Below, piece after piece: positions 1,844 to 54,996 of a stretch of 56,918 bases of DNA. How positions within the stretch are numbered: the stretch's first letter is position 1; each line of letters begins with the position of its first letter. This DNA is from Peptococcaceae bacterium BRH_c4a. GTDB lineage: Bacteria; Bacillota; Desulfotomaculia; Desulfotomaculales; Desulfocucumaceae. The notes below the pieces were generated by a model. It made no database searches. It was not told where the DNA came from and was given only the letters and a program-made list of their open reading frames with translations. The translations under genes were made by a program, and so were the position numbers. Where the stretch lies: positions 1 to 56,918 of the forward strand of contig LADN01000009.1 in the NCBI GenBank assembly GCA_000961585.1, in the 5' to 3' direction.

Positions 1844-2605
1844 GTGCGCAGGGATGAATTCAATAACCTTAAAAGCTGGTTTTATGGATATGTGAAAAAT
1901 TTTTACAGTGATAATCCGGAATGCCAGGCAGCGGTGATATTTAAAGAAAAACACACCGAAAGGGTGTGCCGAAATATATTAAACATAGGGGAACATTTAA
2001 AACTGGCGGAGGGGGATCTCAATCTAGCCCAGGCAGTGGCTCTTTTCCACGACATTGGCCGGTTCAGACAGTACAAGGTCTACGGCACCTTCAATGACCG
2101 CCGGTCGGAGAGCCACTCCCTGATTGGGGTGCGGGAACTGGAAGGCACAGGGGTGCTGGAAGGTCTGGATCCGGAAGAGAGCAACCTGATTAAACTTGCC
2201 GTGGGCTACCACAGCAGCTTCGATTTGCCCGAAAACCTTTCCGGCCGCCTCCTTCTTTTTACCAGATTGATCCGGGATGCCGACAAATTGGACATACTGG
2301 ACACCTTCACCGACTATTACTCCCGCACCGACCGCCAGCCCGACACTGTGCTGGAGTCCGGCCTGCCGGACACTCCAGGGTACTCCCGGGTACTGGCCCA
2401 AAACCTTCTGCGACGGGAAAGGTGCAGCTACCATGAGGTAAAAAACTTCAACGACAGGAAGCTTTTGCTGCTCTCCTGGGTCTACGACATAAACTTTCGG
2501 TACACCCTTTCAGAAATCCGCAAAAAAGGCTATATTGAAAAGATTATAGGCTGGCTGCCCGATACCGAAGATATACGGGCCATTAAAAGCTGTCTGCTGG
2601 AATAG
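1844..2605 (+). CDS. HD-domain phosphohydrolase
   Basis: 253 residues. An HD-superfamily metal-dependent phosphohydrolase: H37 in KEKHTERV, the H69-D70 doublet in ALFHDIGRF, a histidine at 91, H123 in YHSS, and D145/D147 in IRDADKLDILD fit the H...HD...D ligand pattern. Substrate unknown; such proteins cleave nucleotides or cyclic nucleotides. The GTG start at 1844 is preceded by AAGGGGG at good spacing. It stands alone between the tRNA-Ser promoter region and a structured repeat (2693-2848), and its codon use matches the GC-rich core genes. No signal peptide or membrane segment. Confidence 0.85.
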   Translation: MRRDEFNNLKSWFYGYVKNFYSDNPECQAAVIFKEKHTERVCRNILNIGEHLKLAEGDLNLAQAVALFHDIGRFRQYKVYGTFNDRRSESHSLIGVRELEGTGVLEGLDPEESNLIKLAVGYHSSFDLPENLSGRLLLFTRLIRDADKLDILDTFTDYYSRTDRQPDTVLESGLPDTPGYSRVLAQNLLRRERCSYHEVKNFNDRKLLLLSWVYDINFRYTLSEIRKKGYIEKIIGWLPDTEDIRAIKSCLLE

Positions 2606-2692
2606 TCGTCAGCCGTAGGACTTCAGACGTCGTAATAGTTTCATTTTACCTCCGGGCAAAAGATTTTAAGACCTACGACTGAAGACTGATAC

Positions 2693-2848
2693 AGCCAGTT
2701 CAGCCGGAGGATAAGCAGATCGGACTAAAAACCCCTCCACCGGCCACAAAGCGACCCCGGAGCGACCCCAGAAAAACTCTGGGCTACATAAAAATGCTTT
2801 AGCGGTTTAGCGCTTTAATGTTTTAATATGGCACATGCTTTCCTTAAC
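2693..2848 (+). repeat. Structured dispersed element, copy C (truncated, distal half only)
   Basis: This copy starts inside the inner stem (AGCCAGTTCAGCCGG, as in copy B from 54866) and continues through the 3' outer-stem arm (GGACT...CCCCTCC), two GCGACCCC units and the end module, to TTTCCTTAAC. The proximal half and central hairpin are missing. It fills most of the 350-bp gap between the HD gene and the small-protein cluster. The rest of that gap (2849-2955) holds an AT-rich leader; no confident promoter was seen. Confidence 0.75.
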
Positions 2849-23532: not shown

Positions 23533-23608
23533 GTAGTATAGGAAATTATGCTTTTCGAAAATTGTGGATAACTTATTTTGTCACGGCGAAAACCCTATGT
23601 TCATTTTT

Positions 23609-24003
23609 GGGGGTCACTCCGGGGTCACTTGAGGGTCGCTGCATTGTCGCTAATGGGTAGGCGGAGCGATTTAAGTCCGGCCTGCATTACCTCCTGCTGC
23701 AACTGTCTCTAAACTTGGTCGCCAACGAAATGCCGACCGCCTCCAACGCCGCATCCTTGCGTCGATTCCGGCTTCCGGCTGCGTCCTGCAGCCGGCTCGG
23801 CATTACGTAGGCTCGGTCGTTAAGAGACAGTAGCAGCCTCCGGTACATTCCGCACGGACTTAAATCACTCCCCCTCACTGCATGTCGCTGTGGGGTCTCT
23901 TGAGGGTCGCTTTTAAAGCATGCTGTCACAATTCTGGATTCTGGATTCTGGCTCCTGGATTCCGCCGTCTGCAAGCCGGCAACGCCCGTCAGGGCGTTTT
24001 TTT
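23609..24003 (-). repeat. Structured dispersed element, copy A (full length, candidate ncRNA)
   Basis: Inverse orientation to copy B. Nested pairings: outer stem 23663-23678 with 23856-23871 (16 bp, one mismatch), GCTGCAACTGTCTCT (23696-23710) with 23823-23837, AATGCCGA (23729-23736) with 23797-23804, CCGGCTGC (23775-23782) with 23788-23795, CGCA/TGCG at 23750-23761. GCGACCC/GTGACCC units lie on both flanks. The plus-strand end has hairpin AACGCCC/GGGCGTT plus T-run (23981-24003). It fills the gap between convergent genes. The ORFs across it (23687-23974 minus) are not believed to be genes. Confidence 0.85.
23981..24003 (+). terminator. Intrinsic terminator at the end of element copy A
   Basis: AACGCCC (23981-23987), loop, GGGCGTT (23992-23998), then T-run to 24003. 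The same unit is at 53015-53037 in copy D. Confidence 0.85.
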
Positions 24004-24010
24004 AATCATT

Positions 24011-52736: not shown

Positions 52737-52780
52737 ATTATGAGAATCCAGAAGCCAGAATTCTGGATTCCGCTTAAGGT

Positions 52781-53037
52781 GCTAAATCGCCAAAGCATTT
52801 TTATGTAGCCCAGAGTTTTTCCGGGGTCGCTCCGGGGTCACTCTGTGGCCGGTGGAGGGGTTTGAGTCCGATCTACTTATCCTCCGGCTGAACTAAAACC
52901 CCTCCCCCTCACTGCATGTCGCTGTGGGGTCGCTTGAGGGTCGCTTTTAAAGCTGCCTGTCACAATTTTGTCTCCTGAATTCTGAATTCTGGATTCCGCC
53001 GTCTGCAAGACGGCAACGCCCGTCAGGGCGTTTTTTT
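52781..53037 (-). repeat. Structured dispersed element, copy D (lacks the central hairpin)
   Basis: Same orientation as copy A. Outer stem GGAGGGGTTTGAGTCC (52854-52869) pairs with GAACTAAAACCCCTCC (52890-52905), but only 20 nt lie between, whereas copies A and B have about 180. GCGACCCC units, hairpin GCCGTCT/AGACGGC (52998-53014) and terminator 53015-53037 are present. The 3' end of the phosphoribosyltransferase gene reads into it. Confidence 0.82.
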
Positions 53038-53657
53038 AGTATTGATAAAACCTCCTGGTCGCTGGTCTGGCTAAAATCCAGATAAAACTGCCCAACGGCG
53101 TAAAACTCCTCCGGAGATTGCAGGCAGATAACCTTATGGGCCTCCCTTTTGAACAACTCCAGTGTTTCCGGCGGGGCCACGGGAACGGCTATTATAAGGC
53201 GGTCCGGTCGCAGTGTGTTTCCGGCGAACCTGGCGGCAGCCAGCATGGTGTAGCCGGTGGCCGCCCCGTCATCCACCAGTACAAGGGTTTTGTCGCTGAA
53301 ATCGGGGTACTGGTCGCTTCCCCGGTACCCTGTCATTCTCCTGGATATCTCCCTTATTTCCTTTTCTATCATTTCCTCCAGCACAGCATCTTCGATTCCC
53401 AAAAATGAAATCATTTCCCGGTTTATAAAGGTGGACCCGTCCTGGGCCACGGCCCCCACGGCCACTTCCGGGTTAATGGGAGATCCTATTTTTCTGGGCA
53501 CCACCAAGTCCAGAGGAGCCCCAATCTCATCGGCCACCCTGGCGCCAACCACCACCCCGCCCCTTGGAATGCAGAGCACAACAGCGTCTCCGGGGTTTAA
53601 TTTCTTTATTTCCGACGCCAGATAAGAACCGGCTTCATCCCTGTCTTTAAAAATCAT
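52947..53657 (-). CDS. Phosphoribosyltransferase-domain protein with element-encoded tail
   Basis: 236 residues from ATG 53657 (GGGG six bases upstream; family start MIFKDRDEAG). PRPP-binding motif LVLVDDGAATGYTM and flexible-loop region IPRGGVVVGARVADEIGAPL typical of orphan type I phosphoribosyltransferases of unknown substrate. After KKRPDGRCRL the last ~30 residues (ADGGIQNSEFRRQNCDRQL) are translated from repeat element copy D, including its terminator hairpin, so the natural C-terminus was overrun. Core probably functional. Convergent with yyaC and divergent from larB. Confidence 0.85.
   Translation of the reverse strand: MIFKDRDEAGSYLASEIKKLNPGDAVVLCIPRGGVVVGARVADEIGAPLDLVVPRKIGSPINPEVAVGAVAQDGSTFINREMISFLGIEDAVLEEMIEKEIREISRRMTGYRGSDQYPDFSDKTLVLVDDGAATGYTMLAAARFAGNTLRPDRLIIAVPVAPPETLELFKREAHKVICLQSPEEFYAVGQFYLDFSQTSDQEVLSILKKRPDGRCRLADGGIQNSEFRRQNCDRQL
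53015..53037 (+). terminator. Intrinsic terminator at the end of element copy D
   Basis: AACGCCC (53015-53021), GGGCGTT (53026-53032), T-run to 53037. Would end transcripts from yyaC as well as any RNA from the element. Confidence 0.85.
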
Positions 53658-53696
53658 TTCCATCCCCACTCATTATAAGCTTAGTATACACACAAT

Positions 53697-54576: not shown

Positions 54577-54611
54577 CAGTAAGCCATCAGCTATCAGCAG
54601 TCAGTAAAATA

Positions 54612-54996
54612 ACCGCCTTGTCGGCGGTGCCGTCTTGCAGACGGCAGGAGCCAGAAGCCAGAAAAAGCAAGCATGACCCTCAAGCGACATGCAGAGAGGG
54701 GGAGGGGTTTTAGTCCAGGCGGATGTTCCGGAGGCTGTTATCTGGCTCTTGGCGACAGAGCCGTACGGACTGCCGAACCGGCTGCAGGACGCAGCCGGTA
54801 GCCGGAATCGACGCATGGATGCGGCGTTGGAGGCGGTCGGCAGTCCGTTAGGCGACGAGCTTAGAGCCAGTTCAGCCGGAGGATAAGTAGATCGGACTCA
54901 AACCCCTCCGCCTACCACTTAGCGACCCCGGAGGAACCAGGGCACAACAGGACTTTAGCGCTTTAATGCTTTAATAGGGCATATACTTTCCTTAAC
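54612..54996 (+). repeat. Structured dispersed element, copy B (full length, candidate ncRNA)
   Basis: Reference orientation. Hairpin ACCGCC/GGCGGT (54612-54628), hairpin GCCGTCT/AGACGGC (54629-54645), outer stem 54701-54716 with 54894-54909, CTGGCTCT (54742-54749) with AGAGCCAG (54863-54870), GGACTGCCGA (54767-54776) with TCGGCAGTCC (54837-54846), CCGGCTGC (54778-54785) with GCAGCCGG (54791-54798), CGCA/TGCG at 54812-54823. It ends TTTCCTTAAC. It fills most of the larB–larC gap; the remaining 54997-55121 holds GGCTGATTGCTGATGGC and a site before larC. Confidence 0.85.

Follow-up and report, generated by a model that had tools for sequence, protein, structure and literature searches.

A probable core-deleted copy of a dispersed, MITE-like hairpin element that carries the TwoAYGGAY RNA domain

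Introduction

In the table of Weinberg et al. 2010 (PMC2864571), the TwoAYGGAY motif (Rfam RF01731) is rated a probable RNA ('y') and neither cis-regulatory nor a riboswitch ('n'), unlike its entry in Rfam, where it is typed as Cis-reg. Binding of CsrA by TwoAYGGAY via two hairpins has been proposed (PMC4333381), and the passages of the two papers that deal with the motif make no mention of its repetition or mobility. Among mobile elements, the closest described systems include bacterial MITEs and the small repeats of Streptococcus pneumoniae, in which SPRITE is terminator-like and SPRITE, BOX and RUP insert into one another (PMC10969869, in the parts concerned with these elements). A further point of comparison is IS1272 of the IS1182 family, which is described as targeting stem-loops (inverted repeats) and replacing the target without target duplication (PMC5678879, in the part on target choice).

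The repeat described here, of which the locus termed copy D is one member, is short, has no gene of its own and occurs in many copies, as MITEs do, and it shares with them an intergenic location and, in a genome of another family of the same order (G017), terminal inverted repeats and duplicated flanks. It is unlike the bacterial MITEs of that description (PMC10969869) in that the duplicated flank is an intrinsic-terminator hairpin, in its nested hairpin modules and in that no parent transposase was found. The likeness to SPRITE, BOX and RUP is drawn from their descriptions only. With IS1272 (PMC5678879) the element has the inverted-repeat target in common, whereas in G017 the hairpin stands on both sides and is not replaced. 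As regards TwoAYGGAY, the model is matched over its full length by the cores of sibling copies, which keep both GGA loops; D has no core. A limited search of the open literature on insertion at terminators met no account of this element, and a small literature search likewise none of TwoAYGGAY inside a mobile, terminator-seeking hairpin element.

Results

The window, the whole 56.9-kb stretch of DNA that was analysed, is contig 18 of a genome (G000) of 3.49 Mb in 98 contigs, in which the repeat is dispersed, intergenic and present in about a hundred copies. The features of D and of its siblings in the window are as follows; the TwoAYGGAY strand is the opposite of the plus strand of D.

52778..53037, minus strand (TwoAYGGAY orientation): copy D, a core-less copy of the dispersed hairpin element; left edge approximate
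52854..52869, minus strand: 3' arm of the outer stem of D, GGACTCAAACCCCTCC on the minus strand; the plus strand reads GGAGGGGTTTGAGTCC
52870..52889, minus strand: 20-nt loop remaining in D, AGCCGGAGGATAAGTAGATC on the minus strand; a1 copies have about 157 nt extra ahead of the loop
52888..52894, minus strand: junction in D, where one 7-nt unit, AGTTCAG, stands; the core of a1 copies has AGTCCAG on one side and AGTTCAG on the other
52890..52905, minus strand: 5' arm of the outer stem of D, GGAGGGGTTTTAGTTC on the minus strand; the plus strand reads GAACTAAAACCCCTCC
52998..53014, minus strand: GCCGTCT...AGACGGC hairpin on the 5' side of the element
53015..53037, no strand assigned: terminator-like hairpin AACGCCCGTCAGGGCGTT with T-run, read on the plus strand; it forms the element's 5' end when read in TwoAYGGAY orientation
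54607..54933, plus strand: a1-type copy with TwoAYGGAY core at 54726-54884
23604..24004, minus strand: a2-type copy with TwoAYGGAY core at 23688-23845; left edge approximate
2580..2817, plus strand: copy without 5' shell, in which a beta-like hairpin replaces the TwoAYGGAY interior; left edge set by eye

In most copies the core, placed inside the loop of the outer stem, is RF01731, and two siblings in the window match the full model (1-168) with 48.5 and 46.8 bits against a cut-off of 43. The family was found at 115 places in G000, 98 of them above the cut-off, and was absent from 14 well-known control genomes. The surroundings of most of these places were examined, leaving aside about seven weaker ones (C8:25858, C23:87861, C34:11817, C43:61704, C46:23586, C78:31419 and C88:9636). 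Among the 124 copies with a 5' shell, the core is of type a2 in 67, a1 in 36 and a beta hairpin in 7, the remainder being a1 with gamma (4), a2 with gamma (3), other (6) and other with gamma (1). Within the pieces examined, the 5' shell directly adjoins 103 of 108 core matches of at least 130 nt; the five others comprise the two later units of a tandem array, one match at a contig start and two diverged loci (L047 and L048). The gamma hairpin (GGAGGTTAGATGTTGGAAG...) takes the place of the apex of the TwoAYGGAY core with sharp borders in both core types, and in eight loci (L019, L038, L044, L045, L012, L016, L018 and L043) its 3' border is the same and its 5' borders differ.

Where both ends were found, the element measures 385-523 nt in 62 of 66 copies. 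In G000 it begins with AAAAAAACGCCC or AAAATAACCGCC, often at a stop codon, and ends with ...AACGATAAAAAA. The interval from -40 to +12 around the element start holds the stop codon of an ORF in 44 of 88 copies, compared with 12 of 88 at a control position 150 nt upstream. Behind the 3' end, the mean 45-nt fold is -12.1 (72 copies) against -8.1 for 70 controls farther on, some of the hairpins being the start of the next element. A-runs occur at both ends, hairpins follow the 3' end in many, not all, copies, and no terminal inverted repeats were seen by eye at the listed ends in G000. Side observations on these copies include a locus with the core three times in tandem, 442 nt apart (L120, G000:C91:67089-68130), and another repeat, AAGGAAAGGGGACA..., that directly adjoins the copies L020, L054, L103, L127 and L171. 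Contigs C23, C34, C41, C54, C70, C88 and others end inside or near copies of the element, which therefore limits the assembly.

The original prediction placed about 20 nt between the outer-stem arms of D where other copies have about 180, and this is what was found: a 20-nt loop, with the stem anchors 22 nt apart in D, against 179 nt both in the a1-type copy at 54607-54933 and in most others that have these anchors. A BLAST search of D against its own genome, with 40 of 341 first-look candidates scored, gives at least 81 pieces including D itself, mostly left or right halves, and the two halves of a1 copies lie about 146 nt apart in these matches. The anchor spacing and the predominance of half-element matches thus identify D as a copy of the dispersed repeat without its middle. 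No RF01731 match was obtained in D even at E<=1, let alone at the Rfam gathering score, and D therefore is without both GGA loops. The flanks, predicted to be kept on both sides, are so in part: the GCGACCCC units, the GCCGTCT hairpin and the terminator-like hairpin are present, but the 3' end in TwoAYGGAY orientation is truncated, with matching to other copies ceasing at about 52778, short of the ...CTTTCCTTAACGATAAAAAA end that by eye is common elsewhere. By itself, GCGACCCC is mildly enriched in the window, with 6 matches against 2.48 expected and 4 of 100 shuffles equally high. Among the listed ORFs of at least 100 aa, the only one to extend into D does so with its end and belongs to a neighbouring gene. 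This phosphoribosyltransferase ORF (52947-53669, minus strand) has about the last 30 of its 240 residues inside the element; its closest relative aligns over residues 5-217 only, and one distant match reaches 236. The frequency with which draft contigs end in copies of the element would fit an assembly artefact, in which D is a collapsed repeat, but D lies in the interior of its contig with genes on both sides and its junction class has further members in G000 and in another assembly, so that such an artefact is very improbable.

The sizes of the inserts between the shell anchors were surveyed over 127 entries (the 124 copies and 3 added ones, with C98:50736 entered twice as L039 and L173). 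The 5' anchor was present in 116, of which 107 had the 3' anchor as well; the 9 lacking the latter, including both C98:50736 entries, were left out. The 107 copies have inserts of 1 nt (4 copies), 129 (4), 154 (2), 158 (87), 159 (2), 203 (4) and 219 nt (4), with no smear of sizes between, and the sizes are therefore discrete. Two discrete classes rather than gradual sizes had been anticipated; discreteness was observed, with more than two classes. The proposal of a modular element whose shell occurs with or without a core is upheld by a discrete core-less class, which recurs in another family with a different shell.

In G000 this class comprises four copies and one truncated candidate. A search with the core-less junction pattern gave five matches, namely C10:34904, C18:52877 (D), C25:5745, C62:97603 and C98:50736, of which C98:50736 has 3 mismatches and is broken on its 3' side; the pattern gave none in 10 relatives and none with a reversed control, and 7 genomes contained no match to a corresponding pattern for a core-less a2 shell. 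The a1 copies have their core between the imperfect 7-nt direct repeats AGTCCAG and AGTTCAG, and each core-less match retains one unit. D and L171 have AGTTCAG, L169 and the truncated L173 have AGTCCAG, and L172, the only one of the G000 core-less copies with both ends intact, has AGTCCAG with the next base altered. A sharp junction at the core boundary, common to several copies, had been predicted, and the single retained unit is of this kind. Deletion between short direct repeats predicts a single retained unit, with the exchange on either side of one differing base. An identical 7-nt repeat arrangement would be left by core insertion with target duplication. It was first considered that D must be derived because it retained an unpaired half-stem; this view was abandoned, since the 20 nt that remain form the loop of the outer hairpin.

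In a shell tree of 100 rows, where 43 of 93 inner branches have less than 80% support, the four core-less rows are placed such that four changes are needed, three of them forced by well-supported branches. D sits on a short branch among a1 and beta shells, with a best identity of 97% to a beta-cored copy. L117 (C10:34904) and L171, both on long branches, form a well-supported trio with one cored copy, and three independent losses are for this reason a safer claim than four. The beta and gamma cores are scattered on the tree, which indicates that shells and cores have been exchanged. At the orthologous D loci of G001, G002, G005 and G007 (L131, L133, L132 and L130) there is no RF01731 match, and the insertion boundary is unreadable because identity is 69-75% (the right stretch was read by eye in L130 and L131). 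L131 contains a stretch that by eye resembles the gamma hairpin.

Related elements with a different shell are found in G017, of which 390 kb of two contigs were read. The G017 shell gives a weak BLAST match to D around the stem (41 nt, 68%, E 0.088), and the terminal inverted-repeat pattern CAGACTGTAGACAAAG has 183 matches in G017 against 16 for the control. Of 24 terminal inverted-repeat pairs, 17 span less than 700 bp: 11 elements of 264-270 nt and others of 77, 111, 115, 115, 195 and 231 nt. The 111- and 115-nt elements are core-less shells, one of which (C8:234072) has a different junction, the 195- and 231-nt elements have partly deleted cores and the 77-nt element is shorter still; partial sizes therefore occur in this genome. 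Cored G017 copies have CTGTCGG on both sides of the core, and a core-less junction pattern with one CTGYCGG unit of the two gives 11 matches in G017, none in five other genomes of its genus and none with the reversed control. One junction is common to at least 9 of these, L257 being ambiguous and L261 of different sequence. The original prediction had also suggested a cargo-less or excised form as one defined state, and this was not supported: the four tree changes, the two registers of the 7-nt repeat and the G017 sizes of 77, 195 and 231 nt look like repeated deletion across the hairpin.

The repeats at the junctions bear also on the possibility that the core itself is mobile cargo, entering the loops of shell hairpins with a 7-nt target duplication, in which case core-less copies would be older empty shells or products of precise excision. 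Near-perfect 7-nt direct repeats flank the core in two lineages, with roughly the final 12 nt of the match to RF01731 left behind in both, cores and shells have been exchanged as noted above, and the beta and gamma hairpin modules substitute parts of the core at sharp borders. Against this, the near-constant adjacency of 5' shell and core means that the core was not seen moving apart from the shell, the core-less copies are nested among cored shells with D on a short branch, and deletions of other sizes are present in G017. A mobile core is accordingly unlikely, while precise excision or an older empty state is a possible alternative origin of core-less copies.

Insertion at terminators is suggested by the flanks of the elements in G017 and in G013, where most listed elements lie between two copies of one hairpin, which differs from locus to locus and in many cases is of the intrinsic-terminator type; L205, L209, L211 and L213 are among the few without a duplicated hairpin in the flanks printed. 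The flank direct-repeat score of the 17 G017 elements averages 34, compared with 11 for mismatched flanks, and exceeds 15 (the 95th percentile) in 16 of 17. Because of the terminal inverted repeats in G017 and the duplicated terminator hairpins in these 16, the family looks like a terminator-targeting MITE. For 29 elements of G017 and G013 together, a same-strand ORF ends upstream in 22, a convergent ORF lies downstream in 25 and both apply in 18, these being counts without a control. As a separate observation, the TwoAYGGAY element L176 (G017:C10:24200-25100), which has a duplicated terminator, occupies the intergenic spot of D in opposite orientation, between the orthologues of the DUF1256 gene and of the phosphoribosyltransferase gene.

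Core-less copies in G017 have such flanks as well, with identical 23- and 22-nt terminator-hairpin duplicates around L253 and L254 and one mismatch in L251. Among the 10 core-less copies for which both ends were found, the flank score is above 15 in 7 and not in 3. On a tree of 31 G017 shells, in which most forks are weak, the core-less label needs 6 changes compared with 8.6 when shuffled, and 23 of 500 shuffles are equally low; this mild clustering is compatible with one lineage multiplying without a core and neither proves nor refutes it. Together with the junction common to most of the matches, these features would suit a reading in which core-less elements form an active smaller lineage, the shell alone transposing and the core being dispensable. 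Yet the core could have been lost after insertion, and in G000 the core-less copies are scattered on the shell tree with only one intact at both ends, which leaves this reading somewhat doubtful.

Discussion

Taken together, D is probably a derived copy that lost its core via short repeats, the element to which it belongs being intergenic, short, MITE-like and high in copy number. The intact element would be a set of nested inverted repeats, an outer shell with the TwoAYGGAY RNA domain in its loop. Slippage or template switching over the large hairpin, or recombination, could join the 7-nt repeats, deleting some 157 nt in a single step so that the short outer hairpin remains. Such deletion appears to have occurred more than once between the short repeats at the foot of the large hairpin, and D is most likely one instance of it. 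Intact elements, as in G017 and G013, would insert at an intrinsic terminator and duplicate it, with transposition, present or past, presumably catalysed by some enzyme.

The search for such an enzyme covered two families (PF01797 and PF05598) and found no linked transposase. A Y1 transposase of the RAYT kind was considered as the mover; there are two PF01797 matches in G000, and their loci (L149 and L150) are without Rfam match or BLAST match to shell or core. PF05598 has 3 matches in G000, 2 in G017 and 12 in G013, and these DUF772 transposases were rejected in the same role since none of the 17 loci has a properly placed matching pair of ends. Single end matches with at most 2 mismatches are scattered in 4 of the 17, and two multi-copy IS of G013 with readable ends have ends that differ from those of the element. 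An autonomous element was sought between G017 inverted repeats 2-4 kb apart, of which there are seven pairs; the ORFs of five were viewed, and no transposase was recognised from the first 60 residues. Membership of IS1182/IS1272 is disfavoured by the unreplaced target hairpin in G017 and by DUF772 transposases with other ends where these are readable. Group IIC introns insert behind terminators, and no group II family is among the Rfam gathering matches in the window.

As regards function, the core would act as an RNA, and the evidence leans weakly to an RNA in TwoAYGGAY orientation. At the 50 pairs common to the predicted structures of both strands, minority G-T cells number 19 against 5 for A-C in this orientation, and the consensus fold is -94.4 compared with -82.9 for the other strand; the structure predicted for each strand favours its own strand by construction (128 to 11 and 27 to 107). 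GGA is present in both loops of all 91 aligned cored G000 copies, gamma-type cores excluded, but since mean column identity is already 93%, this conservation is mild support at best for the core as a candidate CsrA-binding RNA. No csrA gene was found in the 978 kb examined, a small share of the genomes with part counted more than once.

For an orphan RNA family, the placement of TwoAYGGAY in the middle of a repeat located at gene ends in these genomes provides a physical context, and its many occurrences may therefore reflect mobility rather than regulation of particular genes. A more far-reaching and tentative reading, with less in its favour than the core deletion proposed for D, is that TwoAYGGAY forms the centre of a widespread terminator-seeking and terminator-duplicating mobile hairpin element, by which a two-loop GGA (CsrA-type) RNA domain would be seeded into many gene 3' ends; movement of the shell alone, for which G017 gives the best support, would make the core cargo instead of part of the transposition machinery. 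If true, duplication of terminators by a hairpin element would be a simple route to tandem terminators in bacteria. The core-less copies furthermore offer a natural test of the role of the core, in the form of matched shells with and without it.

RF01731 is present in 27 of 113 genomes of the order and in 51 of 398 sampled across the phylum, with copy numbers per genome, which are lower bounds, of up to at least 22 in the order survey and at least 6 in the phylum survey. G016, G042, G036, G037 and other genomes contain many matches to the inner part of the model only (about 46-112), as if an apical two-hairpin module existed independently.
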